Assembly: GCA_019314375.1 (NCBI GenBank)
Contig: JAFCZJ010000005.1
Coordinates: 1-64,000, forward strand
Origin: Deltaproteobacteria bacterium
Lineage (GTDB): Bacteria > Myxococcota > B64-G9
DNA: 64,000 nucleotides
Direction: 5' to 3'
This document shows, piece by piece, positions 17,801 through 60,830 of the stretch. Below the pieces are notes generated by a model, which did no database searches, was not told the DNA's origin, and saw only the letters and a program-made list of their open reading frames with translations. The translations under genes and the position numbers were made by a program. The stretch's first letter is position 1. Each line of letters starts with the position of its first letter.

Positions 17801-18186
17801 TCGCGGCGAAGCTGATAGGTCTCCAATCCATTGCGGATGGTGAAGAGCAGGTCGTTTAGATCCCAGGGTTTGGTGATGTAGCGATAGACTTGGCCCCGGT
17901 TGATGGCATCGATGAGATCCTTGGGCTCGGTATAGCCGGTCAGAATGATACGCATCATCTGGGGTTGAATCTTGCGGGCATGTTCAATGAGTTCGATGCC
18001 CGTCATCTCGGGCATGCGCTGGTCGGTCAGCAGCAGATCCACCTGCTGTACTCGTAAAATTTCCAGTGCTTCCGCCCCGCTCCCGGCGGTCAAAATCTCA
18101 TAATCGTCTTCCAGGGCCCGCTCAAGCACATTCAGAGCGTCCTTTTCGTCGTCCACGGCCAAGATGCGATAGCGATGTGTCGTCAT
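14839..18186 (-). CDS. Hybrid kinase: REC - GAF-like - PAS - HisKA - HATPase - REC - REC - GGDEF
   Basis: 1115 residues, soluble. REC1 (about 5-125) has phosphoacceptor Asp in LLLTDQRMPEMTG. A GAF-like region and a PAS domain ('LPDGVIMVDDQDSVFVINPAA') follow. HisKA carries 'SHELRTPLTSI' near residue 430 and the ATPase carries 'NLLSNALKFT' and 'GSGLGLSIS'. REC2 ('LILMDIRMPDVDG') and REC3 ('VVLLDVMLPDMDG') come next. The last domain is GGDEF-like, but the signature reads AGDDF near residue 1000, so diguanylate cyclase activity is doubtful. The ATG at 18186 has GGGAG upstream; an upstream extension of the frame to 18291 has no such support. First gene of the kinase-kinase-FecR unit and divergent from the PilZ-like gene. 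Confidence 0.88.
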   Translation of the reverse strand: MTTHRYRILAVDDEKDALNVLERALEDDYEILTAGSGAEALEILRVQQVDLLLTDQRMPEMTGIELIEHARKIQPQMMRIILTGYTEPKDLIDAINRGQVYRYITKPWDLNDLLFTIRNGLETYQLRRDKEKLLSDLELRLNAMTVFLDLSKEAARANSYPEIIRAILKYLPFMLEFDACAALLEQGGGAKAFLYIHRRKPMGQKQLFEIRKQTLEAYRERTGRLISEEELLLQVTGQEPGDVEHGEFVSQVATVLHKADDKPLGLIMLFDSRKDSLGEDAGQMLDILANQTAEIVDGLRKQLSTEQERLRLMVQSLPDGVIMVDDQDSVFVINPAARKLLHLSPDAEVDTRFLKDTLGFYPFDLVRGWAIRDREALREEIQVFDRVLQSIVSPVSLDDKLLGVAVVLRDITEEKRLEERKDEFVSIVSHELRTPLTSIGGALDLLIHRYAGELNEKQERYLELARGGCDKLNTIISDLLDLNRYASGKMDMRMTRLDLNALAKEAIDQYQAAAEERQVHLELRRPEDMVHVWGDRNRLHQVLNNLLSNALKFTQKDGTIRVQVLSSPLTSDLIGLSVYNDGEEIVEQDHARIFDKFEQAKRARSGAVSGSGLGLSISKNIVDAHGGSIWVESGRGQGTEFIITLPAYDGQKGTEEARTLPGLMPSLPKFKTAPSLLVVDDDVNTTYVIKGLMMSQGYHVYVAHSGKEALELARERLPSLILMDIRMPDVDGLQITDILHHDPETREIPVLVLSVAQEEHAAYEAGAAAFLSKPVDVPNLLEQVLELLEKRRLVKRMFKVLIVDDDPAIREVSRGVLEEQGYAVVEAGSGEEALKRLEREQVDVVLLDVMLPDMDGFQVTEQIRSDRKLKDLPIIFISARGQTKDKVKALKLGGDDYMVKPFDTLELGARVDTIIQRKERELDSSPTTKLPGSLALDREINRRLLDLRGFSLCYLDLDNLKAFNDYYGYAKADGVIQQTGDVIRKAVEKHGTPSDFVGHIAGDDFVLVTETGSLQAICHGIIKNFDSLIPLYYKQEDQSKGYIETTDRFDELRRFPIMSISLASILVKPGQVCSHAEIAKMAAQLKAEAKKQAGSVLVQGELEETGNKEGSKDQA

Positions 18187-18246
18187 GGATGTCTCCCGTG
18201 CCGATGCTAACACAACAGGGCGTTTTGGCAACATGAGGGCTTGCAG

Positions 18247-19023
18247 ATGATGACAACCTCGGTCATCATGGCCACGATGGAAAATCTTCAATTTAGAGTG
18301 AAGTATCGATCATGGACTGCCCTGCGCAAGGACATCGAAGAGCAAATGTCTATGTGGGGATTGCTGCTCCGCACGGAGATTCAAGCCGAGCTCTATACGC
18401 CGGTCGAACTGAACATCATCGCACCGGACGGACGATTGTTGGAGTTCAAAGCTCAGGTGCTGCAGCACATTCCGGGTCAGGGCCTCGCCTTGAAGCTAGA
18501 GCAAACGGATCCAGAGGTCCGGCGAGAGTTGGAAGCATGGCTTGCCGTGGACATCGACGACGCGGTCGATGGCGAGGATCCCAAAGTACGGCTTGCGGGC
18601 GAGGAAAGCCCTGAGCAACCTGAAAGCGCCATTCAGAAAATCGACCAAATGACCGTTACGGAAAAGCGGAGGGCCGCACTTCGAGGCAAGAAGGACATGA
18701 GGACCCTGCTCATCCGTGATCGCAACAAGACGATCCATCCCTTCATTCTCAAGAACCCGTCCATCACTTTGGACGAGATAGAGCAAATCGCAAAGATGCC
18801 GGGGGTCAATCCGGATGTGCTTCGCTTGATCGCCCGCAACCGGGACTGGACCCGCTCGACCACGGTGGTGCGCAATTTGGTGCGAAATCCCAAGACGCCC
18901 ATGAAAGAGGCCCTGACTCTGCTGAAAAAGCTACCCAAAAACGACATTCGAGCCATGGCCAAGACAGGCAACGTGCGTACCGCCATCCAGACGGCTGCTC
19001 GTAAGATCGTAAGGGAACTTTAG
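18247..19023 (+). CDS. PilZ-like protein with C-terminal helical domain
   Basis: 258 residues, no signal peptide. The N-terminal part ('ELYTPVELNIIAPDGRLLEFKAQVLQHIPGQGLALKL', spread over residues 35-75) resembles myxobacterial PilZ-like domains, but the usual RxxxR c-di-GMP motif is not evident. The C-terminal half is helical ('HPFILKNPSITLDEIEQIAK', 'RNLVRNPKTPMKEALTLL') and looks like short alpha-helical repeats. The ATG at 18247 has GAGGG seven bases upstream. It is divergent from the hybrid kinase with about 60 bases between starts, so the two may share control. Possible c-di-GMP or kinase-linked adaptor; binding is unproven. Confidence 0.65.
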   Translation: MMTTSVIMATMENLQFRVKYRSWTALRKDIEEQMSMWGLLLRTEIQAELYTPVELNIIAPDGRLLEFKAQVLQHIPGQGLALKLEQTDPEVRRELEAWLAVDIDDAVDGEDPKVRLAGEESPEQPESAIQKIDQMTVTEKRRAALRGKKDMRTLLIRDRNKTIHPFILKNPSITLDEIEQIAKMPGVNPDVLRLIARNRDWTRSTTVVRNLVRNPKTPMKEALTLLKKLPKNDIRAMAKTGNVRTAIQTAARKIVREL

Positions 19024-19028
19024 GACTT

Positions 19029-19649
19029 TTAGCGCTCGGCCCGAACCGCTTCCACCGTGAAACTAATCTGCCAGGCACCGTAAGCCGCGCTGGCAATGCC
19101 GAATCGGCTGCTTGCGCGATAACTGCTTTGCCCCGGAAGCACCCTGACCTTGACAATCCCTTTTTGACCCGGTTTGAGTGCTCCACTATGAACAGCGGCC
19201 GTGCCCAAATGGGAGTCGCTGGTGTATACCTCATCACCCCAGATGGAACCCGTGGTGCTGCCCCGTACCTCAAAGAGCAAAATCCGATCCATCTGGTTTT
19301 CGGTCAGATGCAAGACGCCCGGATCCGGACGAATGCCCAGGATCCTTCGAATCGTGTCCCTGAGAGCCACGGCCTCGTCGAGCCTGCCGAGTTTGGTGTA
19401 CTTCTCTTGCAGTGCCTGGAGCTTCACCGAGGCTTTCTTTTTGGCTGGACCCAACTCATGATCCGCCTGATCTTGGATCTCTCGAATCCGGATCTGGGCT
19501 TTGGCCATGACCGCTTTTTCCACCCTATCGAATTCCTTCACTGCAGCCATCGCCTCTTCAGGCAAGTTCGCCTGACCGGCTCGAACTTGTGCAAGGCCGG
19601 TCCACAGCAGGCCCAAAATCACCAATCCCGATAATATGTATCGATTCAT
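19029..19649 (-). CDS. Secreted LCCL-domain protein
   Basis: 206 residues with a signal peptide (MNRYILSGLVILGLLW..). A charged helical segment (about 30-110, 'EKAVMAKAQIRIREIQDQAD') precedes an LCCL domain at about 130-203. The signature residues are GSIWGDEVYTSDSHLGTAA, VHSGALKPG and the closing 'YGAWQISF'. LCCL modules occur in extracellular proteins of eukaryotes and scattered bacteria. GGAGAG lies four bases before the ATG. The frame continues upstream through an 18-base tandem repeat, which would give an artificial N-terminus. Function unknown; a periplasmic or extracellular binding role is inferred. Confidence 0.75.
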   Translation of the reverse strand: MNRYILSGLVILGLLWTGLAQVRAGQANLPEEAMAAVKEFDRVEKAVMAKAQIRIREIQDQADHELGPAKKKASVKLQALQEKYTKLGRLDEAVALRDTIRRILGIRPDPGVLHLTENQMDRILLFEVRGSTTGSIWGDEVYTSDSHLGTAAVHSGALKPGQKGIVKVRVLPGQSSYRASSRFGIASAAYGAWQISFTVEAVRAER

Positions 19650-19663
19650 GGTTCTCTCCAATG

Positions 19664-19735
19664 CGATTTTTCTTGAATGCCCGATTTTTCTTGAATGCCC
19701 GATTTTTCTTGAATGCCCGATTTTTCTTGAATGCA
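19664..19735. repeat. Four tandem copies of an 18-base unit upstream of the LCCL gene
   Basis: The unit CGATTTTTCTTGAATGCC repeats four times, the last copy differing in one base. It lies immediately upstream of the ribosome-binding site of the LCCL gene and keeps that reading frame open. Copy-number change could alter leader length. Confidence 0.9.
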
Positions 19736-19771
19736 TAGTAAGCAGGGACGCATCGGGATGGCAAAAGGTCT

Positions 19772-21052
19772 TTATTGGCCCGCGGTGGTGAAGAGGAAGG
19801 GATAGGTGACGATGACTTGACCGCCGCCTCGGGGCTTGGGAAAGCGGATTCTTCGGATGACCCTGAGCAGGCAGCCTTCTACGTTGGCGTCGCCCATGGA
19901 ACTGGCCATGGTTTGGGCGTCATCAACACGTCCGCTGCCGTCGATGACGAAGGTGGTGGTGACTTTGCCGTACAGGTTCGGCCGTCTTCCCAGCTCACGT
20001 TCGTAACAAAATTTGAACTGGGCCCAATAACGATGGATTGCCGTGCCCACCACCTTCTGGCTCAGGCCGCCGATGATGCGGCTGCGCTTTTTCGAAAAAG
20101 TCACATTGGCTTTGCCGCGGTGCCCCGGGCTCAGGTTTGTTGTGCTGTCAGCAGCCAGATTCCAGCCACCTGGGCCACCGCTTCCCCCGAGGTCGATTCC
20201 TGGTGCGCCTCCGCCCATGGGACCACCGCGCATCTCCATCCCGGCGAATCCACTTCCTGAAGCAGAGGCCGTCCCCGAGAGGGCTTCGAGTTGGGCATCC
20301 AGGTCCGGCGCCGAAGTGCCCCCGAATATGCTGCCGCCTTGTTTCCCTGCCCCGCCGCCGTGTTTTTTCAGAAGCTCCAAGATGCCCGAGCTGGTGGCCA
20401 CTTTTCGGTCATGGGCTCGTCGCTTCTCGCGGGGAATGGCGCTCTTCCCTGAGAGGCTGCTCTTCGTGAGGCTGGCCTGCTTCTTGGTCTCTTCGACGGG
20501 TTGGAAGCTCTTTTTATCCACCGTGGGCAAGGGCATGAGCATTCGTGAAAAGCGGGCCGGATCCTTGAGGTAGTCGGAGGACATGGCTTCGGCGGAGGGC
20601 GTGGTTTGGATCATGGCCCAAAGACCCAGAGCCACGATGAAAAACATGCTCCACCAGGTGGTCATGGACAGGTCTCTGACACCCATGCGGCTTCCCAGGA
20701 CAGGCCGAGGGGATTTGACGACCCGAATTTCGAGCTTGAGTTGACCCAAGCGGATATCGGCCCGGTCGCCTTCCTGCATGGCGATGTGGCTGGGCGAGAG
20801 TCGAATCGAATCCCGGTTACGCTCTGCACGATGTATGGAAAATTCCGCGTCGGGCCAGAGATGGATCAGGTAGCCTCCAAGCCCGTTTGCGGTGGCCAAT
20901 CGATGCATGGGATTTGGGATTTGATCGTCGTCCAGTTGAATGTCGGCTTTTGGACTGTGGCCGATGAATACATCCTTGTCATCGGAAAAAACTTTTGCAT
21001 CCAGCGCAACGGCTCCCCAGCACAATTTGATCGACAACTGTTCTTCTGGCAT
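19772..21052 (-). CDS. GltG-like paralogue: FHA-like domain, TM helix, TonB-like AgmX C-terminus
   Basis: 426 residues. The N-terminal 115 residues ('IKLCWGAVALDAKVFSDDKDVF') match the second domain of the GltG protein encoded upstream in the operon, but the canonical FHA domain is absent. A transmembrane helix (WWSMFFIVALGLWAMIQ) at about 130-148 and a Gly-rich linker follow. The C-terminal domain has 'YWAQFKFCYERELGRRPNL' and 'LRVIRRIRFPKPRGGGQVIV', the AgmX/PglI TonB-like signature. Inner-membrane protein spanning the periplasm. GAGGGG lies six bases before the ATG. Last gene of the Glt/Nfs operon; probably a duplication of gltG. Confidence 0.82.
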   Translation of the reverse strand: MPEEQLSIKLCWGAVALDAKVFSDDKDVFIGHSPKADIQLDDDQIPNPMHRLATANGLGGYLIHLWPDAEFSIHRAERNRDSIRLSPSHIAMQEGDRADIRLGQLKLEIRVVKSPRPVLGSRMGVRDLSMTTWWSMFFIVALGLWAMIQTTPSAEAMSSDYLKDPARFSRMLMPLPTVDKKSFQPVEETKKQASLTKSSLSGKSAIPREKRRAHDRKVATSSGILELLKKHGGGAGKQGGSIFGGTSAPDLDAQLEALSGTASASGSGFAGMEMRGGPMGGGAPGIDLGGSGGPGGWNLAADSTTNLSPGHRGKANVTFSKKRSRIIGGLSQKVVGTAIHRYWAQFKFCYERELGRRPNLYGKVTTTFVIDGSGRVDDAQTMASSMGDANVEGCLLRVIRRIRFPKPRGGGQVIVTYPFLFTTAGQ

Positions 21053-21128
21053 GACGGACCCCTCTCATGGCGAACGGCCTTGAGACAGACTCAGGCCGGA
21101 GAGGTTCCGGTTGTGAGAGGATCGTCAG

Positions 21129-21809
21129 TTAGAAATTATAAATAATCGAGCCGGAGGCACTCAATGCGGGGATCATGGTGGGTATGACGTAGTAGAAGTT
21201 GGATTCTATGGCCACCGTGAAGTGTCTCAGAAGAGTGTAGTACTCGAATCGGAAGCCGCCGAAGACATCGCCGTCCACCACTCCCTGATCCGGATCGGCT
21301 TCGGGGTTGATGATGACGACCCCGCCACCCAGACGGGCTTCTATGGCCCAGCGTTCCGCGCCATAGAGATCGTAGTCGGCTGACAAGTTGATGAAAGTCA
21401 TGCCGAAATCGTAATGATAATCAGGATGGTCATAAGGATCTTGCAAGGGGTTGGCCGCCTGGTATCCCGAGGCATAGGCCAATTGGACACTGAGTTCCTC
21501 GTTGATGTCGTATCCAAATTCGAAGCCGAAGAAGGGTTGTCCGTCCGAATATCCTCGGCTGCCTCCAAAGGTCAGGAACACGCCACCTCGGCCTTCAAAA
21601 TAGAAGCCCGTCAGACGTTCGAAAATGATTTCTTCACTTACGTCCACGACAGCAGGGGCTTTCACTTCAGGCTTCACTTCAGGCTTCGCTTCAGGCTTCG
21701 CTTCAGGCTTCGCTTCAGCTTCCGTTGCCTCCGTTTCGCCCTGAGCAAAAGCAGCTGTGGCGAAGCAGGTCAAGAGCAATACAAGCAGGGGAAGGGATCT
21801 CGATTTCAT
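21129..21809 (-). CDS. gltH: Outer-membrane beta-barrel protein, GltH/NfsH position
   Basis: 226 residues. Signal peptide (MKSRSLPLLVLLLTCFATAAFA), then an acidic/Pro linker of repeated 'KPEAKPEVKPE', then a barrel beginning 'FYFEGRGGVFLTFGGSRGYS' and ending in 'SASGSIIYNF' with a terminal Phe as expected for Bam-inserted barrels. It lies between gltG and the gltG paralogue, the place of GltH/NfsH in the Myxococcus order. The symbol rests on position plus barrel type. GAGG sits nine bases before the ATG. Inferred role: outer-membrane pore or anchor of the complex. Confidence 0.7.
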   Translation of the reverse strand: MKSRSLPLLVLLLTCFATAAFAQGETEATEAEAKPEAKPEAKPEVKPEVKAPAVVDVSEEIIFERLTGFYFEGRGGVFLTFGGSRGYSDGQPFFGFEFGYDINEELSVQLAYASGYQAANPLQDPYDHPDYHYDFGMTFINLSADYDLYGAERWAIEARLGGGVVIINPEADPDQGVVDGDVFGGFRFEYYTLLRHFTVAIESNFYYVIPTMIPALSASGSIIYNF

Positions 21810-21820
21810 CTTGTCGGACC

Positions 21821-23752
21821 TCAGCCAGCCGTGGTGAACATGAAGGGATAGGTGACGATGACCTGACCACCACCGCGCGGGGTCGGGAAGCGAATGCGGC
21901 GAATGACGCGCAGCAAGCAATTTTCCACGTTGGCGTTGTGCATGGAACTCTGGATCACTTGAGCCTCGGTCACCCGACCGTTGCCGGCGATGGTGAAGGT
22001 GGTCGTGATCTTACCGTAGAGATTGGGTGCCTTGGACAATTCGCGTTCGTAACAGAATTTGAACTGGGCCCAATAGCGTTTGATGTATTTGCCGACAACT
22101 TCTTGGCTCAAACCGCCAACAATGCGCGTCCGACCCTTGACCACCCTGACGCCGGCCTTGCCGCGATGGCCAATCTTGACCGAGCCATAACCCGCGCCTG
22201 AACCACGACCATAACCGGCCGTACCCATGCCGCCCAATCCCAGACCACCACCACCGCCGCCAGGACCGCCTCCGCGAGTGCCCAGACCACCAAAGCCACT
22301 GGAGTCCATGCCTCCCTTGGAAAGCCCTTCCAGTTGGTCATCCAGGCTGGTCATGGCCGCGCCACCAAAAACGCTGGAGGCATTGTCGCCGGTGCTGCCA
22401 CCGCGACCTTTAAGAAGGCCCAGGATACCTGCGTTGGTTGCCGCTTTGCGATCTTGCTCCCGCTTGACTTCTCGTGGGACTTCCGCGGAATCCTTGGTTT
22501 TGTTTTTTGCGATGACTTTTTTCCATTTGGCGTCGTCCGCGGTCTTTGGCTCTTCTTCCTTCTTCTTCTTGATCTCGTCGAAAGTCTTCTTATCTTCGGT
22601 TTGTTGCGCAGGCAAGATCATCTTGGCGAAGCGTGAAGGATCCTTAAGATAATCCGAGGCATCCAACTCTGCTTTTGGGGTCGCCTCGATCATGAACCAC
22701 ACACCGGCGGCGATAATGAAAAACATGCCCCACCAGGAAGTCATGGTCAGGTCTTTGGAGGCCATGCCCGCCGGGCGAATGCCTTTGGCCTGGGACACAT
22801 ACTCGACCACGAAGGCGACTTGCCCAATCATGATTCGAGCCCTGTCACCAAGCCTCAAGGAATAGGAACGAACCGCGCCCTGGCTTGGCAAATCGCCAAC
22901 GTCAACCAGCTTGCCCTCGTGGCGGACTTCCAATTCCATACCCGAAGCGATGTGAATCACATGACCGTCTTTGCCGCCTGGGCTTGCCAGCGTGAAAAGT
23001 TCTCCAGGAAAGCGGTCCGTCGAGAGCTGAAAACTGGCCTTGGGATGTTCGCCGACCGTGATGACGGAACCCTCGACAAAGTGTTTGGACTCTAAGGCAA
23101 TTCGTCCCCAGAGAACTTTGACTTCCAGGGCCTTGTCTCCCTGCCGTGCTTTTTCGAGCGAGTTGACTTCCCGCTGGAAAAAGACCTCACCAGACTTCGG
23201 TGCTTTTGTGTCAATTTGGCGCGGAATTTCACGCTTGCGGACAATTTGAGTACCGGTACCCGTCTCGACCGCTCGGGCGGGTGCGGGTTTTGGCTGCGTC
23301 TTTTTGGCCGCTTCGCGAACCGGCGGCTTGCGAGGCGGTTTGGCCTTGGGGGATGCTTTTTTTTGACCTGCATCGGGCCTGGTGGGACCATCCTTCATGG
23401 CTTTCTTCGGAGCCCTTTCGGCCTTGGTTTCTACCGCATCAGAACCAACGCCGATGACAAAGACTTCCACATCGCCGATGCGGATGGTATCGCCTCGCTG
23501 CACATTGGCTTCTCGGAGGACCTCTTGGTCGTTGACCGTGGTGCCCTCTTCTGAACCCAAGTCGCTGATCAGGGCCACGCCCTCATCCGGACTTGCCCGA
23601 AGAATGGCGTGAACGCCGGATACCGACTCGTCATCGACCTGAAGGTTGGCACCAGGTCCGGAGCCCAGGATGACGCTCTTTTCTCCCTTGAACTCGCGTC
23701 GTTCACCAGCATGTTCGATGATAATTGTAAGCATTTCGCTTTTTTTAGCCAT
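21821..23752 (-). CDS. gltG: GltG-like inner-membrane protein: FHA, FHA-like, TM, TonB-like C-terminus
   Basis: 643 residues. A clear FHA domain at about 25-105 has 'GSGPGANLQVDDESVSGVHA' and 'GTTVND'. A Lys/Pro-rich linker and a second FHA-like domain (about 205-330) follow. A single TM helix (SWWGMFFIIAAGVWFMI) lies at about 337-358, then a charged segment, a Gly-rich stretch and a C-terminal AgmX/PglI domain ('YWAQFKFCYERELSKAPNL', 'NCLLRVIRRIRFPTPRGGG'). The FHA side is cytoplasmic and may read Thr phosphorylation; the TonB-like end reaches toward the outer membrane. GAGGG precedes the ATG by seven bases. In the Myxococcus model GltG links the inner-membrane motor to periplasmic subunits. 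Confidence 0.85.
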   Translation of the reverse strand: MAKKSEMLTIIIEHAGERREFKGEKSVILGSGPGANLQVDDESVSGVHAILRASPDEGVALISDLGSEEGTTVNDQEVLREANVQRGDTIRIGDVEVFVIGVGSDAVETKAERAPKKAMKDGPTRPDAGQKKASPKAKPPRKPPVREAAKKTQPKPAPARAVETGTGTQIVRKREIPRQIDTKAPKSGEVFFQREVNSLEKARQGDKALEVKVLWGRIALESKHFVEGSVITVGEHPKASFQLSTDRFPGELFTLASPGGKDGHVIHIASGMELEVRHEGKLVDVGDLPSQGAVRSYSLRLGDRARIMIGQVAFVVEYVSQAKGIRPAGMASKDLTMTSWWGMFFIIAAGVWFMIEATPKAELDASDYLKDPSRFAKMILPAQQTEDKKTFDEIKKKKEEEPKTADDAKWKKVIAKNKTKDSAEVPREVKREQDRKAATNAGILGLLKGRGGSTGDNASSVFGGAAMTSLDDQLEGLSKGGMDSSGFGGLGTRGGGPGGGGGGLGLGGMGTAGYGRGSGAGYGSVKIGHRGKAGVRVVKGRTRIVGGLSQEVVGKYIKRYWAQFKFCYERELSKAPNLYGKITTTFTIAGNGRVTEAQVIQSSMHNANVENCLLRVIRRIRFPTPRGGGQVIVTYPFMFTTAG

Positions 23753-23776: not shown

Positions 23777-24052
23777 TCAGAGGTTGTCTACACTTTTGAT
23801 CATTTCGGGCAAAAAGTTGTCTCTGACCCGAATGAGCAAGTTGAAATTGGCCTTTTTCTTGTTCATCAAATAAGACCCCTCCGGTTTGGTTAACTCGCCG
23901 GTGATGGTCACATCCGAAAAATCGATGATGGTGGTCTGCTTGTAAACCTTTTGGACTTCACCTTCTTCGGCGCCCTGCGCAAAAGAGGGCTGGGCTGAAA
24001 GAAGCAGTCCGAGGGCGGCTGTTATAATGAGAATCCACTTCATCACTGTCAT
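23777..24052 (-). CDS. gltF: Small periplasmic protein, GltF/NfsF-like
   Basis: 91 residues with a signal peptide (MTVMKWILIITAALGLLLSA). The mature part reads 'VYKQTTIIDFSDVTITGELT' then 'YLMNKKKANFNLLI..R.NFLPEM'. I recognise this as the small conserved protein between GltE and GltG in Glt/Nfs clusters. A divergent counterpart lies at 60378-60650 in the second cluster. AGGAGGAAAAG directly precedes the ATG at 24052, which decides the start over a longer frame. Confidence 0.75.
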   Translation of the reverse strand: MTVMKWILIITAALGLLLSAQPSFAQGAEEGEVQKVYKQTTIIDFSDVTITGELTKPEGSYLMNKKKANFNLLIRVRDNFLPEMIKSVDNL

Positions 24053-24154
24053 CTTTTCCTCCTTGGGGAACCTGATGCAAGCGAGTGTAGCTTGCGACAT
24101 CCAACCTGTCTTTAGGTTCCGAAACATCACCAAATTCTTTCAAAAAACAAGATC

Positions 24155-25711
24155 TCAGCCAGCCTTTTTGTCTTCTTTCGCCTTGGCTGGAGCATCCTTT
24201 TTCGTATCCTCAGCCTTGGGCTTGTCGGCAGCTTTGTCCTTGGCAGCCTTGTCCTTGGGCTTGTCGGCAGCTTTGTCCTTGGGCTTGTCGGCAGCCTTGT
24301 CCTTGGGCTTGTCGGCAGCTTTGTCCTTGGGCTTGTCGGCGGCTTTGTCCTTGGACCCTTCTGTACCCGTATCCGGCAGTGTCTCTCCCTCAGTCGGGAC
24401 AGGTTCGGCGTCTTCTCCGGCCTTCAGCATTTCCTGTAGTTTTTGCTGACCGGCTTTGCCCTTCGTGGTGTCCTTCTTCGCAGCCGCTGCTCGGGCTTTA
24501 CGTTTCTTTTTTTCTTCTTCTTGTTGCTTCCGGTCGTCCTCTGCCTGATCTACCTTCATCTGGCGAGCCATTTCAAGGCGAGCCTGAGCACCTTGCAGGC
24601 GGTTGTGGACGGGATCGCTTTTGCTTACCTTCCCCACTACTTTCTTGTACCGTTTGTAGTACTCAACAGCCTTGGCGTAATTCCTGAGCAGACTGTCTTG
24701 AATGAGGCCCACCGCATAGATGCTTTGGGCATCCTTGGGCTCGCGGTGCAAAACCTTCTCGAACATTTCAAGGGATTTTTTGCCGTCTCCCAAACCGAAT
24801 ACGGCAAAGGCAAGCCCTTTGATGGCGATCAAGTTGTTCCTGTCTTTTGAGAGAACCTGCTCGTATGCCTTGCTTGCGCGCTGATAGTCGCGGAAGCGAT
24901 GCGCCATGGCCGCGATATTGATCAGGGCTTCATTGTAATTCGGATCAATTTTCAAGGCCTTCTCAAACTGGGACTGGGCCTCTCGGAATCGTTTTTGGCC
25001 GATAAATATCATGCCCAAATTGTTGTAGATGCCCGCGTCCTCAGGAATGGACTTGTCTTCTTTCCTGAGCTTCTCAAGCATTTTGCCGGCATTGATGGCC
25101 AGCAACTCGGCCTTTTTGAACTCCTTCTGATCGTAGTAGATAAGGGTCATGTTCTTGTAGGCTTCCACGTTGGTGGGTGCCCTGGCCAGAAGCTTGTAAC
25201 CCGTTTTGACTGCCTTGTTGTATTCCTTGTTCAGTCGATAGACCACGATGAGATTATTCATCAACTGGGGGTCGCGGGGTACCGTTTTCAGGGCTTCGCG
25301 ATAATGGGCGATGGCCTTGTCGAACTTGTTTTGCCGCCTGAACACCACACCCAAATTCAGCAGGGCCTGACGGTGATCGGGTTTGATCTTGAGCGTCTCA
25401 GCATATTCCGTGGCTGCACCATTCAGGTCATTTTGTTTCATCAGAATCACGCCCACGTTGAAGTGTGCGTCGACCAGTTTTCCGTCATTGCCCTTGTAAT
25501 GGGTCAGTGATTTCCTGAGCAGAGCCACTCCCTGCTCCAGTTTTCCCGCTTCAATGGCCGCCAGCCCTTCATTGAAATAGGCCTCGGCGGGTTTGATCTT
25601 GATTACTTTTTGTATTTTCGTGTCGGGCTTGACCACCACCTTTTCGGGGCAGCCCGTCGCAAATACCGCAGCAACGACGACGATGGGCAGGATCGAATGA
25701 TTCATGCGCAT
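24155..25711 (-). CDS. gltE: TPR lipoprotein, GltE/NfsE-like
   Basis: 518 residues. Lipobox FATGC with Cys at 21. About ten TPR units follow ('AYFNEGLAAIEAGKLEQGVA', 'ALLNLGVVFRRQNKFDKAIA' and so on). The C-terminal third is a charged, low-complexity tail with an Ala/Lys-rich coiled segment and six or so near-perfect DKAADKPK repeats. GltE in Myxococcus is a TPR lipoprotein of the periplasmic part of the motility complex. GAGGA lies nine bases upstream of the ATG at 25711. The gap to gltD upstream is 40 bases and to gltF downstream about 100 bases. Confidence 0.85.
   Translation of the reverse strand: MRMNHSILPIVVVAAVFATGCPEKVVVKPDTKIQKVIKIKPAEAYFNEGLAAIEAGKLEQGVALLRKSLTHYKGNDGKLVDAHFNVGVILMKQNDLNGAATEYAETLKIKPDHRQALLNLGVVFRRQNKFDKAIAHYREALKTVPRDPQLMNNLIVVYRLNKEYNKAVKTGYKLLARAPTNVEAYKNMTLIYYDQKEFKKAELLAINAGKMLEKLRKEDKSIPEDAGIYNNLGMIFIGQKRFREAQSQFEKALKIDPNYNEALINIAAMAHRFRDYQRASKAYEQVLSKDRNNLIAIKGLAFAVFGLGDGKKSLEMFEKVLHREPKDAQSIYAVGLIQDSLLRNYAKAVEYYKRYKKVVGKVSKSDPVHNRLQGAQARLEMARQMKVDQAEDDRKQQEEEKKKRKARAAAAKKDTTKGKAGQQKLQEMLKAGEDAEPVPTEGETLPDTGTEGSKDKAADKPKDKAADKPKDKAADKPKDKAADKPKDKAAKDKAADKPKAEDTKKDAPAKAKEDKKAG
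24219..24351. repeat. 24-base coding repeats in the tail of the GltE-like protein
   Basis: In-frame tandem units encoding KDKAADKP repeat about five times with one shortened unit. The bases are highly uniform, so copy number may vary among strains. Confidence 0.85.
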
Positions 25712-25751
25712 GGCTAGACTTCCTCGTTTCGCTTGTCGTTCCATCAGGGCC

Positions 25752-28700
25752 TCAAGAGGTCGGCTCAGCGCCGGTTTCCTGTCCAGGAGCACCTGGGGTT
25801 CCCTTGACTGCCGGCACCACCGGAACTTCCTTCGGCTCCGGCACGTCAAGCTTGTTCAGTTGAGGGCCCGCATCATAGAAAAACTCGGTGGACACCAGCC
25901 CGGCCGAATAGACAGCCGGGTATTTATTGGTCTCGAAAGTACGCACCAGGTCTTGGGCCATCAAGGTCCAGCTGCCGTAAATGCCTTTCGCGTTGGACAC
26001 GCTGATCGCCTTGTTCAGGAAAACAATGGCTTTTTCTTCCAGCGGCAAGGCCTGTTTCTGTAGTTCTTCTACATAAATGTCCTGTTGTTCCATCGTCAAA
26101 CCGCCTGGCACCGGGGCGTCCAGCATGGCCCGGCCAAGATCCTTGCTCAGTTCGGCGATGCGAACGAGGGCCGCCACCGACCAGTCAGGATCCCCGAATC
26201 CGATGATTTCTTGATACTTCTTTTCCAGCTTGGGGCGGATGTCGATTTTCTTGAACAGGTTGCGCTTGAGTGTGCGTGGCGGCAAAACCAGCTTCAAGGC
26301 GATGAACTCTTCAAACTCGGGCTGAACCTGCAAGAAGCGGGAGTGAGCCGCGGCCAGACGCGCCTCCGGATTTCGAGCCTTTTCTTCAAGCTTGTTGTAG
26401 CCCTCGATGATCTTGTCCAGCAGCTTGTCTGAGTCTTTGGTCTTGCCCATCTTCCGGAGGGCCATGGCATGTCGATACAAGACGTTGAGCATACGCCCAG
26501 GACTTGAGCGCTCGACGAATTTCTCCAAATAACCATCAAAAACGCGATCGGCGTTGCGCCATTTGCCCTGTTGCTCGTAGATTTTGCCAACCTTCAAGAA
26601 GAGGTCAGGGGTGTCGTCCTTGTCAGGGAAGTGCTTGATGTAGAGTCCGTAGTTTTTGATGGCCTTGGCATACTGCCCCATGGATTCGCGCAGAAGTCCG
26701 GCGTTGAATAGCGAGTCGGAGGCCTCTTTGTCCGTGATCAGGACGACCTTCGTCTCCTCTTTCTTCTTTCCGCGTCGACGCCGACTTCTCTTTTTGGCCT
26801 TTTTTCTTTTCCCTTTTTTACCCTTTTTGACCGTCTTGCCCTCTTGTTCGAGCCATTTGTTGAAAAGTTTTTCATTAAAGACCGCGGCCGTCCCGAAGTC
26901 GGCGATCCGATCGTAAAACGATGCCAGGTAGCCGATGGTCGGGTTGATGCGATCCGACTTCTTGTAATTTTTCAGCAATCGCTTGCCCGCACGGATGGCC
27001 AGATCCAGTTGGTTTGCTTCGTCGTAGATGACCATGGCCGCGTACAAGGCCCGATGCGAGTATTTGCTCTTGGGAAAATCGTTGGCGAATTTGTCGAATC
27101 CGGTTGCGGCCCCCAAGGAATCGGTCTTCCGCAAGGCCAAGACCACGTTGTAGCCGGACTCTTCCACGAGACTTTGGATCTCGGGGGCGAATTTTTGTTT
27201 CTTGGCCACCGGGCTTTTCATCAAAACTTCGTTCTTTTGGAAGGTCAGGGCCCAATAATTGACCGCCTTCCATGATGCGTTTCGATCCTTTTCCTCGTCG
27301 GACAAGGTGGCCTTCATGTACAGGCTGTTCAGCGAGAGGCGCACGGCTTTCAGTGCGTATTCGTTCCGCGGATAGCGTTCGATGATCTCGCCAAAGCGTT
27401 TGGCCATCTCCGCAAAGTGCCGGTACTTGTAAAAGACGAAGGCGCTCTTGAAGCGAATGGGGATGTACATGTCATGCTTGGCGGCTGCGCTCGAATATAC
27501 ATCCGCCGCGGCCAAGAACTTCTTTTCAAAGAATGGGATGTCTTTTTTGACCAGTTTGTCCTTGGACACCGTGCCGGATTGGACAAAGGACATTTTCTGG
27601 TGCTTGATGATTTTGCTCTCTTCTTTTCCGAGTTTGCCTTTGCCTCTTTTGGCTTTCCAATCACGGCAATCCTTTTTCTGGGTGTCGCGCATGACCATGC
27701 ACTTCTCCCAGCAAAGCACCGCATTGTAAGAGGCCTCGGGCGAGTACACACCATCCCGCTTCTTTTCCACCACCAGGGCATACTGCTGACCAGCGGTGTA
27801 AAAGTCGCCCATCTTGTAAAGGATGTCAGAGTAGTACCAGCGCAACTTGTACGCATACAGACTATCCGGGAAGGTCTCCAGGTACTTGGCATAAATGCTC
27901 TTGGCCAAATTGTAGGTATCCCAGCTTTTGGTCTCCTGTGCCTCTTTGTGGTAGCTGGTCACGAGGTCCCGAAGTGACTCTTCCACCATGGTGTTGGCCT
28001 TGGCGATGGCCATTTTGTTGGCTTTGTTGACTTCAGCCCAATGGGAGCCCGGTCGGTACTGATCGATCAGTCGGTTGACTTCTTGTTTGACCTTGTTCCG
28101 CTTGTTCATCTTGCGATAAGCCATGACGACGGAGTTGTGGAAGGCAGGACAATTGGGATCCGTGGGGTACTCGTTAAGCAACAAGCGGTTGGACTTGACG
28201 GTCATCTCCGCCTTGCCCTGTTTTTCATAGGTTCGGGCCAGCTTGCGAAGAAACCTGAGTGTTTCTTTCTTGCCCACTTGGCTCAGATAGTACTCTTGTG
28301 CTGATTCCAGCGCTTCGATTTGGGCGAAAGACAGGACCATGTCCTGCAGGGCCTCACGCTTAAGCTGGATCTTATTCTTGTCACCGCCCGATTTTTGCGA
28401 TTCCTGGGTGGCCAGTTCCGCCACCAACTTGAACTTCTCCAGCGCTTTTTCGTACTCGCCCAGGTTGTAGTCACACCAACTCAGCTTATAAAGAGCAAAA
28501 GTGTAAACCTTGGATTCCTTGAATTTAAGCGCCCGCTCGTAGGCCTTCTTGGCGTTGAAGACGTCGTCCGCGTTGAAGTAATGCTCGCCCATGGCCAGGT
28601 AGGCATCGGGCACGAAACGGCTCTCCGGATGGCCCTTGATTAAGTCCCAGTACATCTTGACGCCTTCGGACTTGTTGCCACTCTCGTAGAGGTTGTAGCC

Positions 28701-29366
28701 CATCGTGAAGAGTACTTCGTCCCGGCGGTGATAGTTCTTGTACTTTTTCAAGATGACGGAATACACGTCCATGGTCTGCTTTGTGTAAACTTGGCTTTTC
28801 CGATTGTCGATCTTGGGTTCGGCGGCGTTGGGATCGGTTTCGCGCTTGGCGAACCATGCCTGAACGGCCTTGTCGTATGTCTGCATCTCCGTGTAGTAGA
28901 TGGAGCGAGCTTTTTCGTAGTAACGCTCAGCCAATCGGAAAAGCAGATCGGCTTTGATCGGGCCGTCGGACGTGGTTTGGATAATCTCGCGCAGCTGGCC
29001 GATCTCGTCGTCCAACAACTTCTCTTCCAGGGTGGCGCCCGCGGCCTTTTTCTCTTCGACCATGGGCAGCTTGATCTTGGCGGGACCTGCGTCTTCTTCT
29101 TTCTCGTCTTGTTTCTTTTCTTTCTTTTTGTCGAATTCCGGTACCTCGGAGAACTCGAGACTACGACCCCGTTTCTTCTTTTTTCTTTTCTTCCTCTTCT
29201 TGCGTTTTGATCTTTTCTTTTTTCTCTTTTTCTTTTTCTTGCTTTTGGCCACCAGCGTACCTTCGTGAAAAACGCCGGCCTGAATAGTCGTCGGGGCCAA
29301 GGCACCAAGGCCAAAGGCTATGATCAGGCAAAGGACCCAGGTTTTCATTGTGCCAAACAGGTTCAT
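25752..29366 (-). CDS. gltD: Large periplasmic TPR protein, GltD/AgmU-like
   Basis: 1204 residues. Signal peptide to about residue 30, then a strikingly basic Lys/Arg tract (about 40-66). The bulk is TPR/Sel1-like helical repeats ('LLFRLAERYYEKARSIYY', 'ALYKLSWCDYNLGEYEKALE'). A second Lys/Arg tract lies near residue 860. The C-terminus has 'DAPVPGGLTMEQQDIYVEEL', which is closely matched in the second-cluster protein at 56165-59251. AgmU/GltD is a large periplasmic TPR component of the gliding complex. GGAGG lies six bases upstream of the ATG. The basic tracts are unusual for a periplasmic protein. Confidence 0.85.
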   Translation of the reverse strand: MNLFGTMKTWVLCLIIAFGLGALAPTTIQAGVFHEGTLVAKSKKKKKRKKKRSKRKKRKKRKKKKRGRSLEFSEVPEFDKKKEKKQDEKEEDAGPAKIKLPMVEEKKAAGATLEEKLLDDEIGQLREIIQTTSDGPIKADLLFRLAERYYEKARSIYYTEMQTYDKAVQAWFAKRETDPNAAEPKIDNRKSQVYTKQTMDVYSVILKKYKNYHRRDEVLFTMGYNLYESGNKSEGVKMYWDLIKGHPESRFVPDAYLAMGEHYFNADDVFNAKKAYERALKFKESKVYTFALYKLSWCDYNLGEYEKALEKFKLVAELATQESQKSGGDKNKIQLKREALQDMVLSFAQIEALESAQEYYLSQVGKKETLRFLRKLARTYEKQGKAEMTVKSNRLLLNEYPTDPNCPAFHNSVVMAYRKMNKRNKVKQEVNRLIDQYRPGSHWAEVNKANKMAIAKANTMVEESLRDLVTSYHKEAQETKSWDTYNLAKSIYAKYLETFPDSLYAYKLRWYYSDILYKMGDFYTAGQQYALVVEKKRDGVYSPEASYNAVLCWEKCMVMRDTQKKDCRDWKAKRGKGKLGKEESKIIKHQKMSFVQSGTVSKDKLVKKDIPFFEKKFLAAADVYSSAAAKHDMYIPIRFKSAFVFYKYRHFAEMAKRFGEIIERYPRNEYALKAVRLSLNSLYMKATLSDEEKDRNASWKAVNYWALTFQKNEVLMKSPVAKKQKFAPEIQSLVEESGYNVVLALRKTDSLGAATGFDKFANDFPKSKYSHRALYAAMVIYDEANQLDLAIRAGKRLLKNYKKSDRINPTIGYLASFYDRIADFGTAAVFNEKLFNKWLEQEGKTVKKGKKGKRKKAKKRSRRRRGKKKEETKVVLITDKEASDSLFNAGLLRESMGQYAKAIKNYGLYIKHFPDKDDTPDLFLKVGKIYEQQGKWRNADRVFDGYLEKFVERSSPGRMLNVLYRHAMALRKMGKTKDSDKLLDKIIEGYNKLEEKARNPEARLAAAHSRFLQVQPEFEEFIALKLVLPPRTLKRNLFKKIDIRPKLEKKYQEIIGFGDPDWSVAALVRIAELSKDLGRAMLDAPVPGGLTMEQQDIYVEELQKQALPLEEKAIVFLNKAISVSNAKGIYGSWTLMAQDLVRTFETNKYPAVYSAGLVSTEFFYDAGPQLNKLDVPEPKEVPVVPAVKGTPGAPGQETGAEPTS

Positions 29367-29379
29367 CGACTTCCTCCGG

Positions 29380-30978
29380 TCACTTCGATGCCTCAGATGG
29401 ACAAGCACGCCGTACTGTGTATTCGTAGAAACCCATCTCGTCGTCCCAATACTCTCTCTTGAACGGCCAGTAGTTGTGGGTTTCGTCGGGAACTTTGGGA
29501 CGCGGGGCCAACTTCCCGCGTTGTTCAGCCTTGATATTCAGGCCCGCCTTGAGCAAGAGGCGCTCACGGGTCGTGATCTCCAGATTGACCATCTTGGCAT
29601 GCCCAACGAAGCCTAAGATGGTTTGGTAGCTCTGCATCAAGTTGGCTTTGACGAAGCCACCGGCTGTCTTTTCAAGCAGGCTGCGCTGCATCGTCACGAC
29701 ACCGCCCAGCTCTTCAGCCAAGCGACTGCCTTTCCACTCACCAACCTGAACGATGGCCTTGGCTTCCCGGTCCAGTGAACGCAGGAAATGGCGAAAGTTT
29801 TCCACGCGGGGATTGTCGAGCAAAGCCTGGCGCACTTTCCCGGGCACCTTGGCCATCGGATCAGAAGCGTCCAACTTATCTCTGAGCAAGAGAGAAGCAA
29901 ATTGCTCATTGGTCAAGGAGCCGCCGACCAGGTTTTTCAATGTAGGCAGCAAGACTTCATAGTTGTCTCTGTAATAGGCCAGAGCCGTTTTGGCCTCGTC
30001 GTAGAGGCAAACCTGGAAGTAAACCGTGGCTTTGAGTATCCAGCTCTCGGGATGCAGCAGGTCTTTGTATCGTGGTGCATGCAGAGAATGCAGAGCGCCC
30101 AGGGCCTTGCCGTATTCTTGTCGCATATAGAAGGCCCAGCCGATTTCAAACATGGAGTCGGCCCAATCCTGGCTAAGGCGCGGGATGCGTGAGTAGTACA
30201 TCACCGCCTTGTCGTAGTCACCCTTGCCGTAATACGATCGCGCCAAATTCAAGGTGCAAAGTTGCCAAATGCGCTGGATATCCTCGTAAGTTGCCAGGGC
30301 GCGAAGGGCTTTGGCCTTTGTGCGTCCCGACAGGTCCACGATTTGCTCGAATAGCTTGATGGCCAAGTCGTATTCTTGCTGCATTTTCGATTCCGAGCCG
30401 GCCAGATTGTAGCGCACACCCAAGCGGGTGTGAATGATGGCTTGCAAGAAGAGCGACTTGGCAAAGACAGGGCTCTTGGTGTCCACGGCCCCGAGGAAGG
30501 CCAGGCTCTCCGCATATTTTTCCTGACGGTACAACAACAAGCCCACGTAAAAGTTGATCCGACTTAATGACATGGGATCCATGCCGGCAAACTCTTGGCT
30601 GTTGTAATATTTGTTAATTTGCGAAGGGATCAGGGTGTCGTCTCTGAGCGACTTGGCAACTTTGATCAGGCCCTCGGCACCCTTAAGGTAATAGGGGTGC
30701 GCCGGACCCGCGACAAAGACCGCATTATAATAGGCCAAGGCCGATTGGTACATCCCCATCTTGAACAGGGACTGGGCAAGGTAGTATTCGGCCTGGGTCC
30801 GATTGGCTGCCACGGTATCGGTCATGCGAACCTGGTAGAAAAGCAAGGATGCGCGACCGAGGTCTTCGTTGTTGTAGGCCTCAACGGCCTGGTTGAGCAT
30901 GCCCCCTGCCCCCTGGGCCATAGCCAGGGATGGAGCTGCGAGAGCGATCAATACGAACAAGGCAATGTGCCGTCTCAT
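29380..30978 (-). CDS. gltC: Periplasmic TPR protein, GltC/NfsC-like
   Basis: 532 residues. Signal peptide (MRRHIALFVLIALAAPSLAMA) and helical repeats ('YLAQSLFKMGMYQSALAYYN', 'FEIGWAFYMRQEYGKALGAL'). The tail 'YWPFKREYWDDEMGFYEY' is echoed by 'YWPYDGEEWPDEFE' at the end of the second-cluster homologue. GGAG is eight bases upstream of the ATG at 30978. The frame extends to 31029, where it would overlap gltB as ATGA, but without a signal peptide. Expected to bridge outer-membrane barrels and GltD. Confidence 0.8.
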   Translation of the reverse strand: MRRHIALFVLIALAAPSLAMAQGAGGMLNQAVEAYNNEDLGRASLLFYQVRMTDTVAANRTQAEYYLAQSLFKMGMYQSALAYYNAVFVAGPAHPYYLKGAEGLIKVAKSLRDDTLIPSQINKYYNSQEFAGMDPMSLSRINFYVGLLLYRQEKYAESLAFLGAVDTKSPVFAKSLFLQAIIHTRLGVRYNLAGSESKMQQEYDLAIKLFEQIVDLSGRTKAKALRALATYEDIQRIWQLCTLNLARSYYGKGDYDKAVMYYSRIPRLSQDWADSMFEIGWAFYMRQEYGKALGALHSLHAPRYKDLLHPESWILKATVYFQVCLYDEAKTALAYYRDNYEVLLPTLKNLVGGSLTNEQFASLLLRDKLDASDPMAKVPGKVRQALLDNPRVENFRHFLRSLDREAKAIVQVGEWKGSRLAEELGGVVTMQRSLLEKTAGGFVKANLMQSYQTILGFVGHAKMVNLEITTRERLLLKAGLNIKAEQRGKLAPRPKVPDETHNYWPFKREYWDDEMGFYEYTVRRACPSEASK

Positions 30979-31025
30979 CTTAGGGTCTCCTCCGCTGCGT
31001 CTGCGTCCGTTGTCCGCCCTGGCCA

Positions 31026-31829
31026 TCACTTATACGGGCTCCAGATTTCGACAGGGTCCTCACCGCCGAACAGGAAGCTCAAGCCCAGATTGACGAACAA
31101 GGTGTTGCGAATCTTGGTCTCATCCTGGGCGATGGTGGCCGCGGATGCTTCACCCTTAACCCGAGCGGCGAAGGTGTAATCTCGCACATCCAAGCGAATG
31201 GCGAACCATCGGCTAAGGAAGATACGGAAGCCCAGACCGAAGGTGCCCACGAAGTAGTTGCCCGTGTCGACCCAGTAGCCGCTTGCGTTTTTGAACTCGG
31301 TGGAGGCCATGCCGCCGCCTGCGCTCAGGTAGAAGTCAGCGTGGCCCAAAACTCGATTGAACAGGGTCCACTTGCCGTAAATGGGGCTGAACTGGATGTT
31401 GATGCCCACGAAGTTGTTGATCATGGCCAAGTCGGCGTTGGATGGGCTGAGCTGGGCGTCTTTTTTCACTTCGTCGTAAGCCGTGGTGTAGTGGTTGCCG
31501 AAGCGCAGGCCATCACCCTTGTAAGTGGCCGGGTCGCTGCCTTCAACCTTGTCGCCCATGGCGAAAGGCACCTTGCAGGACATCCAAATGGCCTCCAGGG
31601 CAAAGGCCTCGTCCAGGTGGTAGTCGAAAGCCAGGGTGCCCGAGTAATGCTGGGTGAAGATGTCGTCCACGCTCAGGCCACCGAAAAGCGCCACTTCAAA
31701 TTTGTTCTTGACCGAATAATCACGTTTCTGAATCACGTGCACACGTTCGTTCTGGCTCTGTGCCCAGACCGTCGGGGCCAGTAAGCAGACCGTCAAGATG
31801 GCGAACAGGACTCGCGTAATCCGCGTCAT
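31026..31829 (-). CDS. gltB: Outer-membrane beta-barrel protein, GltB/NfsB-like
   Basis: 267 residues. Signal peptide (MTRITRVLFAILTVCLLAPTVWA), then 'KNKFEVALFGGLSVDDIFTQHYSGTL' beginning a barrel of about eight to ten strands. Strand motifs include 'DFYLSAGGGMA', 'FGLGFRIFLSRWFAIRLDVR' and 'TLFVNLGLSFLF'. The protein at 51530-52186 shares the sequence feel 'HFDIYLSAGLGV..GLGIKIFSTSWMSVRVDLRD', supporting a paralogous pair. GAGGTG precedes the ATG at 31829. Barrel subunits of Glt/Nfs sit in the outer membrane and contact the substratum or capsule. Confidence 0.78.
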   Translation of the reverse strand: MTRITRVLFAILTVCLLAPTVWAQSQNERVHVIQKRDYSVKNKFEVALFGGLSVDDIFTQHYSGTLAFDYHLDEAFALEAIWMSCKVPFAMGDKVEGSDPATYKGDGLRFGNHYTTAYDEVKKDAQLSPSNADLAMINNFVGINIQFSPIYGKWTLFNRVLGHADFYLSAGGGMASTEFKNASGYWVDTGNYFVGTFGLGFRIFLSRWFAIRLDVRDYTFAARVKGEASAATIAQDETKIRNTLFVNLGLSFLFGGEDPVEIWSPYK

Positions 31830-31849
31830 GGTGTCACCTCGCTCCCATT

Positions 31850-32578
31850 CTAAAAGGCATAACACACGCCGAGACGGAACATGACGACGTGGACAAAGTC
31901 CTCGAGCATCTTGTCTTCCACGGTCGTGCCCGAAGGTTTGTGTTGGGCATCGTATTTGTCGTAGATGAATTGGTCACGGATTTCCACCCGGAGACTCCAG
32001 TCCTCGACGAAGTGCAGGCGCAGTCCGCCGCCGAAATAGACCATGGGTTGGAAACCCGCATCCACTTTGATTTTTTGGTAGGTCCCGCCAGACCAATTCA
32101 ATTCGGAGTAATTGTAGTGCGCAATTCCCGCCCCGCCCACCAGGTATAGGTGGAAGCTGACGGCAAGCTCAGCCGACAGGTTGAGCTTGCCGTAGAGAGG
32201 ATTGAGCACGAAGCCGGCCGTGGACCAAAAGTCGAAATATTTCAGATCGGTCAGCGGCAGGCGTTGGATGCCGTCCAGGTTCTCGGCGGTGCCTAAGATC
32301 TCGTCTAACAGTTTTCGATCCCCGTTGATGAAGGCATAGCCGATATCCAACTCCAGACCGATGTAATCGTTGAAGTAGTACGCTACACCGGCCGAGGTCC
32401 CGATATGCCGAGTATACTTATCGAAGGTCGAGAGGGATGGCGTAAGCATGATCTCCAGCCGTCCATCCATGTTGTAGAGTTGGTTTGCCACGGTCAGGCC
32501 GTCCGCCCGGCTTGTGGCCGGTGCCGCCAGGACCAGGCAACATAACAAGAATTTGGGTAGAATCCGCAGGTTTCGCAT
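31850..32578 (-). CDS. gltA: Outer-membrane beta-barrel protein, GltA/NfsA-like
   Basis: 242 residues. Signal peptide (MRNLRILPKFLLCCLVLAAPATSRA). The mature protein shows barrel strands ('AGVAYYFNDYIGLELDIGYA', 'HLYLVGGAGIAHYNYSEL', 'GGGLRLHFVEDWSLRVEIRD') and ends in LGVCYAF with terminal Phe. It is the first gene of the Glt/Nfs operon and overlaps nothing; gltB follows 20 bases later. GGAG lies 11 bases upstream of the ATG. The assignment of A versus B depends on gene order as well as sequence. Confidence 0.75.
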   Translation of the reverse strand: MRNLRILPKFLLCCLVLAAPATSRADGLTVANQLYNMDGRLEIMLTPSLSTFDKYTRHIGTSAGVAYYFNDYIGLELDIGYAFINGDRKLLDEILGTAENLDGIQRLPLTDLKYFDFWSTAGFVLNPLYGKLNLSAELAVSFHLYLVGGAGIAHYNYSELNWSGGTYQKIKVDAGFQPMVYFGGGLRLHFVEDWSLRVEIRDQFIYDKYDAQHKPSGTTVEDKMLEDFVHVVMFRLGVCYAF

Positions 32579-32768
32579 GTTCCGGTATTCTCCGCTGCGC
32601 GTGGGTGAAGTGAACAATCTCATGGTCGAAATTGTGTATAATAGAGGCCCTGCCAACGCAAGGAAATTCTTTGTTTCCTTAGTGCTTATCCTACAGCTCG
32701 CACAGATTCACACAAAGGATCACAGGGGGGTTGAAGGGGGGTACAAGAGGACAGCAGGGTCAAAAATT

Positions 32769-53502: not shown

Positions 53503-53519
53503 TGAAGCGAGAGGGACAC

Positions 53520-54308: not shown

Positions 54309-54318
54309 CGCGGAAAAG

Positions 54319-60650: not shown

Positions 60651-60745
60651 GCTTGGGCTGATCTACGACTAAGAAAGAATACTTTATCAACGGAAAAGAT
60701 ATCTTTCTTTGAGGCCAGCCAAGAGAAGCAAAGGGCCTACTCAAA

Positions 60746-60800: not shown

Positions 60801-60830
60801 TAGGGTTTTAGGCTCAGATGGTAACCAGGC

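Follow-up and report, generated by a model that had tools for sequence, protein, structure and literature searches.

Why does an operon resembling those of the M. xanthus gliding (Glt) and spore-coat (Nfs) machines hold two GltG-type genes, the second of which encodes a protein without the N-terminal FHA domain? The question is raised by the 64,000-nucleotide stretch of DNA that we analysed (the window), which comes from a draft genome (G000; 370 contigs, completeness 97.6%, contamination 5.8%). Cluster 1 of the window is read right to left on the minus strand, in the order gltA, gltB, gltC, gltD, gltE, gltF, gltG, gltH and then the gene for the short protein, P0001:

36023..37609, minus strand: Ser/Thr kinase with a PEGA domain, upstream of cluster 1 (domain search)
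31850..32656, minus strand: gltA-like outer-membrane barrel (profile, operon comparison)
31026..31865, minus strand: gltB-like outer-membrane barrel (profile, operon comparison)
29380..31029, minus strand: gltC-like (NF033756, 238 bits, below cut-off)
25752..29408, minus strand: gltD-like TPR protein (placed by position, and by 28-32% identity with the D genes of the two Myxococcus-like operons)
24155..25849, minus strand: gltE-like TPR protein (profile match)
23777..24133, minus strand: gltF/CglF-like (NF033764, 66 bits, below the cut-off of 90)
21821..23752, minus strand: FHA-containing GltG/NfsG-type protein P0002, 643 aa (Pfam, NCBIfam)
23474..23674, minus strand: FHA domain of P0002, residues 27-93, with GS for GR and EG for NG (Pfam, alignment)
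21129..21920, minus strand: gltH/CglE-like ORF as listed (NF033755, 138.1 bits, above cut-off, residues 104-263)
19772..21052, minus strand: FHA-less GltG/NfsG-type paralogue P0001, 426 aa (Pfam, NCBIfam, alignment)

P0001 starts 76 bp beyond gltH on the same strand, and the true start of the gltH ORF probably lies further in than listed. The operon thus holds two TonB-like proteins, P0002 and P0001, as the earlier note on this DNA, made from the sequence alone, had said. The Ser/Thr kinase is a possible signalling partner of the cluster.

Directly upstream of gltA is the gene for ribosomal protein L3 (32769-33440, minus strand), a neighbour that is the same in the relative G001 (L042 479-1135). 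Directly after P0001 comes a small protein with an LCCL-like domain (19029-19736, minus strand), for which BLAST gave no match in ten loci of seven relatives; an 18-bp tandem repeat (19664-19734, 3.9 perfect copies) lies between P0001 and this gene, and the repeats also lengthen the LCCL ORF on the 5' side of the probable start. Downstream of the LCCL gene, on the minus strand, are a 1150-aa protein (14839-18291) and a histidine kinase (13007-14842); together with a FecR protein they make up a stretch (12030-18291, minus strand) whose order is kept in G007, G005 and G008 and parts of which are seen in G001, G006 and G002. The distance from gltH to the 1150-aa gene runs from about 20 bp (G007) up to 4.7 kb (G006).

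The features of the P0001 gene and of its product are:

21135..21164, minus strand: promoter-like TTGAGT-18-TATAAT 5' of P0001, in the 3' end of gltH (by consensus match alone)
21059..21066, minus strand: ribosome-binding-site-like GAGAGGGG before the P0001 ATG (sequence)
20708..21046, minus strand: middle FHA-like domain of P0001, residues 3-115 (homology, with the model made on the P0002 copy)
20603..20671, minus strand: TM helix of P0001, about residues 128-150 (sequence reading, and a model helix at 123-150)
19787..20062, minus strand: TonB_C / myxo_SS_tail domain of P0001, residues 331-422 (Pfam, NCBIfam, Foldseek)

The ribosome-site-like sequence stands 6 bases upstream of the ATG, and promoter-like sites of the kind noted occur four times in 3.1 kb where 1.0 would be expected. 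The open frame measures 430 aa from stop to stop and opens just four codons 5' of the ATG, so that no in-frame FHA domain is hidden upstream. The synonymous-codon score of P0001 is 0.139, compared with 0.033-0.044 for three overlapping plus-strand ORFs, which is mild support only because two neighbouring genes score 0.044 and 0.050. The ribosome-site-like sequence and, to a mild degree, codon usage favour P0001 being a real gene.

P0001 aligns with residues 206-643 of P0002 (45% identity, E 2e-121) and with profile positions 204-649 of the 650 in the NCBIfam GltG model NF033760 (174.9 bits); the first ~203 residues of the GltG-type protein, that is the FHA domain and its linker, are absent from it. 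Pfam finds FHA (27-93) and TonB_C in P0002, and in P0001 TonB_C alone (21.2 bits, below the cut-off of 24.6); an HMM built from 23 GltG/NfsG FHA domains, like Pfam, gave no FHA match in P0001. The equivalog cut-off of NF033760 (650 bits) is reached neither by P0001 nor by P0002 (297.9). The TonB C-terminal domain of P0001 is better recognised by TIGR01352 (30.5 bits, cut-off 27.1) and NF033768 (93.1, cut-off 40), and a PDB sequence search with P0001 returned weak TonB matches only (E 0.54 and 0.69). A protein search of genome contigs gave two loci. The earlier note's description of a GltG paralogue that lacks the first FHA domain and keeps the TM helix and TonB-like end is therefore borne out: the order is middle domain, TM, TonB_C, inside a glt/nfs-type operon. 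The kind of protein is already known and the FHA-less architecture is a variant of it. We found no description of FHA-less GltG/NfsG copies in the literature as searched, with most subscription papers and all bioRxiv preprints outside the search.

The second, FHA-like domain that P0001 had been said to keep was modelled on the P0002 copy. Of the five models (mean pLDDT 81.8, 80.0, 79.4, 68.3 and 51.9) the best aligned with the Ki67 FHA domain at Z 9.4 and rmsd 2.4 over 96 residues, and most of the 50 entries listed for it are FHA proteins; these Z-scores come from a re-alignment of Foldseek's own list of matches, and Foldseek itself returned nothing at E <= 0.001 (best 1.7e-3). A profile comparison of the middle domains (69 of the 72 proteins, three being omitted for length) with the family's FHA domains gave a probability of 89% and E 2.3e-6. 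This supports an FHA fold for the middle domain of P0002. The corresponding domain of P0001, which is 30% identical, would have the same fold by homology; the full-length P0001 model has a mean pLDDT of 54, is of low confidence there, and is reliable at the TonB end alone. Searched with Foldseek, that model gave a TonB C-terminal domain as best match (E 2.1e-3), and its list included FHA matches (kanadaptin, prob 0.95, E 0.098).

Which machine does cluster 1 encode? The best match of P0002 in the Myxococcus-like genome G136 is an NfsG-like protein (39%; GltG 29%), and a tree of 72 proteins places P0002 in a branch with Myxococcus NfsG-like proteins (36 rows, support 97/97), Myxococcus GltG being in a separate branch (26 rows, 100/99). 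We accordingly call cluster 1 Nfs-type; the G136 protein is itself probably NfsG, judging from its operon and its distance to GltG. P0001 shares with NfsG the middle domain, TM, TonB_C and a place in an A-to-H operon, and P0002 shares with it the GR-to-GS change in the FHA domain; P0001 differs in having no FHA domain, and the nfs-like operon of G136 shows no short copy. The likeness of P0001 to GltG (PglI, MXAN_4867; in M. xanthus 640 aa with FHA at 26-90, according to Table 1 of PMC3169522) lies likewise in the middle domain, TM, TonB_C and NF033760 match, but it is FHA-less, falls below the 650-bit cut-off and belongs to another tree branch. The closest relative of Myxococcus GltG in G000 is instead on contig C137 (NF033760, 599 bits, cut-off 650), in a D-E-F-G-H row; that contig also holds a GltJ-like match of 156 bits, below cut-off.

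The Nfs and Glt machines of M. xanthus are described as using one common motor, AglRQS, via NfsG and GltG, and two-hybrid tests are described in which AglR bound both (available text of PMC3858216 and PMC3169522). No motor gene (MotA/ExbB match) was found on the window's contig, and six lie on other G000 contigs; a motor shared by P0001 and P0002 can for this reason be proposed but not read from the locus. Another row of the same genome (L211, contig C338, 2822-11979) encodes GltD/E-like TPR proteins, ExbB, two ExbD proteins and an FHA-less GltG of 457 aa, together with one protein without a Pfam match and one cyclic-nucleotide-binding protein. By its gene content this row would seem to form an entire unit of motor and transducer, and it resembles the core complex described in the accessible part of PMC3169522. 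Since it pairs an FHA-less GltG with motor genes, this class of protein may work without FHA.

We next compared which residues of P0001 have been kept, taking as reference those invariant in the eight cluster-1 FHA+ proteins (a choice that favours the set's own members) and as controls six more distant FHA+ proteins. P0001 keeps 13/14 invariants in the TM/juxtamembrane part (residues 116-180), 55/60 in TonB_C, 36/62 in the linker and 12/26 in the middle domain; the controls keep 3-6, 35-47, 33-41 and 10-14 respectively. Fisher tests of P0001 against each control gave p 0.0003 to 0.013 for the TM part and, for TonB_C, p below 0.002 in five of six cases and 0.07 in the other. The middle domain and linker are thus as drifted as those of distant relatives and the TM part and TonB_C are not, so that only the parts which would be expected to face the motor and the outer membrane stay near the level of orthologues. 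The two Cys residues of TonB_C are conserved in all 72 proteins. Recent gene conversion was considered as a cause of the conserved ends and is not supported: same-codon use at shared residues is near the codon-usage expectation (TonB_C 39/79 against 31.1 expected). The short copy of G007 is like P0001 (TM 12/14, TonB_C 56/60), and those of G006, G002 and G001 keep 12, 10 and 12 of 14 TM and 46, 47 and 39 of 60 TonB_C invariants. The sharp pattern is confined to P0001 and the G007 copy; in TonB_C the G001 copy keeps no more than distant FHA+ proteins do, and Glt-type short copies show no clear pattern (for example G008: middle 17/28, TM 23/32, TonB_C 53/70). Short copies evolve fast, the end branch being 0.68 for P0001 against 0.15 for its own GltG, P0002.

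Is this pairing peculiar to one genome? Within the order (here the same set as the family; nine genomes) cluster-1 GltG with FHA is present in eight, and a short copy grouping with it in five: inside the cluster in G000 and G002, and on other contigs in G007, G001 and G006, so that the short copy is not everywhere part of the same machine. In G000 and G002 alike the short copy has gltH on one side and the 1150-aa gene on the other, G000 having an additional gene in this interval. A wider survey of 69 genomes (the nine of the order, 34, and 26) found FHA+ and FHA- neighbours in at least eight operons of at least seven genomes (G000, G002, G008, G103 with two operons, G111, G141 and G157), in some cases with gltF or gltH between the two; in L183 and L185 the short copy retains TM and TonB_C but is reduced in the middle domain too, of which part or most is gone. 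The pair that the earlier note suggested looking for in other Glt/Nfs operons therefore recurs. It is not universal, and the result that would have refuted the note, both copies in all Glt operons, does not hold: the GltG locus and the NfsG locus of G136 each show a single copy. In nine more stretches (G034, G030, G037, G024, G009, G025, G161, G104 and G151; each 7 to 12 kb, picked for looking short, that of G104 being at a contig end) the sole GltG-type protein seen is FHA-less, and all nine of these proteins fall in the Nfs-type branch. Apart from the missing FHA region, the one in G104 (L197 4977-6548) closely resembles an FHA+ NfsG-type protein of G103, and the loss there appears to be recent.

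On the 72-protein tree, 15 switches between presence and absence of FHA are needed, 13 of them demanded by well-supported branches, where shuffled labels average 24; this count indicates repeated change and gives no rate, since the tree was partly selected for short forms and most of its 23 added rows were picked as apparent pairs or short forms. The contig-cut GltG of G004 was excluded from this count; the first tree and the 72-protein tree omit L005, L006, L071, L125, L129, L135, L137 and L138 (partial, duplicate or with another N-terminal part), and the latter also omits G028_766, G136_762 and G027_760 (long or doubtful branches). The eight cluster-1 FHA+ proteins and P0001 fall together in a 13-member group (support 100/100). 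A further, widespread branch (100/99) holds ten FHA-less proteins, including the copy on C338, whose companions there are FHA-less proteins from eight further genomes, and, on a long branch, a protein of the window's cluster 2 (62315-63712). Cluster 2 itself (51530-63712, plus strand) is likewise Glt-like and comprises a GltB-like barrel, GltC/D/E-like TPR proteins and this TonB-like protein without FHA.

How the short copies of the order arose is addressed by AU tests on 18 rows, in which the groups tested were named after the first tree and long branches are in play. These rejected a recent duplication within G000 that would put P0001 in one clade with its own GltG (p-AU 0.0056), a single origin of all five short copies (0.0134), and the eight FHA+ proteins as one clade with the short copies outside (0.0004); a single origin of four short copies, without that of G006, was not rejected (0.086). 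The trees disagree: the first joins four short copies (100/100), and the 72-protein tree leaves P0001 and the G007 copy unresolved. In an 18-row tree with three starred branches the G002 short copy stands beside the GltG of G002, and so may be a separate event.

We think it somewhat probable, on the sequence evidence, that in P0001 the Nfs/Glt-type machine of cluster 1 has a second TonB arm, coupled to the motor but no longer docked in the cytoplasm. The gene would derive from the duplication of a GltG-type gene belonging to this cluster lineage, and the copy would then have lost the N-terminal FHA domain and linker. The TM helices of P0001 and P0002 would share one AglRQS/ExbBD-type motor, whose genes lie elsewhere in the genome, and the TonB-like ends of both would reach the same outer-membrane partners, so that P0001 would be a parallel arm free of docking by the FHA module in the cytoplasm. 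The homology, the loss of one domain, the operon position, the region-by-region conservation and the recurrence are observed; binding of the motor, action in the same machine and freedom from control are what P0001 would be predicted to show. Like TonB and TolA it has a TM anchor, a long linker and a TonB C-terminal fold, and by analogy could transmit motor force to the outer membrane; unlike TonB, whose cytoplasmic N-terminus is described as short in the accessible text of PMC9389320, it has a cytoplasmic FHA-like domain. Against the second arm, the fast evolution of the short copies also fits drift to another task.

A special case of the second arm, raised also by the earlier note and in our view possible but less likely than not, is a hetero-oligomer in which one motor carries both an FHA+ and an FHA- copy. 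The TM motif is similar in P0001 and P0002, and there is a parallel in the Glt machine of Myxococcus, for which two TonB-like proteins, GltG and GltJ, both TolA/TonB-like, are described (available text of PMC5349195 and PMC9389320). The M. xanthus Nfs machine is reported, in the part of PMC3858216 available, to be without a GltJ paralogue, and P0001 could fill this place. P0001 resembles GltJ (AgmX) in being a second TonB-like protein beside a GltG and in the C-terminal SS-tail domain common to both. Orthology to GltJ was however rejected: NF033761 gives 19.5 bits against a cut-off of 450, through residues 349-421 of P0001 and profile positions 600-671 only, and the cytoplasmic half has no match. 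Nor, among the matches listed, was a neighbouring pair seen in 62 of the 69 genomes.

Alternatively P0001 might serve another machine, remaining in the cluster 1 operon only by descent. That G007, G001 and G006 carry their related short copies away from the cluster, on other contigs, is in keeping with this, but P0001 stays close to the cluster's GltG orthologues in its TM region and TonB_C, and the G000 and G002 copies share their place between gltH and the 1150-aa gene (even if that of G002 may have arisen separately), and we consider this alternative unlikely.

The earlier note took the lost domain to be a phospho-threonine reader, and offered, as one possibility, a regulated and an unregulated version of the link. 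Under such a scheme the FHA copy would be gated by a phosphorylated partner, perhaps via the upstream Ser/Thr kinase with its PEGA domain, which is on the same strand, and the short copy would be constitutive. The conserved blocks of FHA domains are given as GR, SxxH and NG (in the text available of PMC4238996). The FHA domain of P0002 matches Pfam at the level of the fold (48.6 bits) and has S-G-V-H at SxxH, but GS at GR and E-G at NG. In an alignment of 34 FHA domains, grouped according to the 72-protein tree, the GR Arg is present in all 15 Glt-type and in none of the 19 Nfs-type domains (18 Ser, 1 Lys); the Asn of the presumed NG block, a column chosen by our reading of the alignment, is absent from all 34 (33 with another residue, one gap). 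With Ser for the GR Arg and Glu for the NGT Asn, the FHA domain of P0002 is unlikely to read phospho-threonine, and the proposed pair loses its premise in cluster 1, where we regard it as distinctly improbable. The FHA domain of P0002 may dock a partner without phosphate. Since the Glt-type domains keep the Arg, a regulated and an unregulated copy stay possible for the pairs of G008, G103 (L182) and G111. The literature searched, so far as its text was available, gave no explanation of the role of the FHA domain in GltG/NfsG.

That P0001 is a decaying duplicate without function, as its fast evolution and eroded middle domain might hint, is highly improbable given the intact ORF with its ribosome-site-like sequence, the 55/60 TonB_C invariants and both Cys kept, and same-codon use at about chance.

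Returning to the second arm, it may be that Glt/Nfs-type machines repeatedly evolve a two-arm transducer (an FHA-docked GltG and an undocked one on one proton motor) and that in Nfs-type machines, with the phosphate-binding Arg lost, the FHA copy can vanish and leave the short protein to run the machine alone; we put this forward as speculation, and doubt it rather than believe it. Natural operons in which no GltG-type protein but an FHA-less one was seen, or which have both forms, amount to domain deletions made by nature. From them the FHA domain of GltG/NfsG would seem to be an accessory dock with no part in force transmission, and the single-form and two-form operons together separate the Glt-type FHA domains, which keep the Arg, from the Nfs-type domains that have lost it. 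Elsewhere in the window, 42855-44672 (minus strand) encodes a protein of 605 aa with VDAGG repeated many times in succession.
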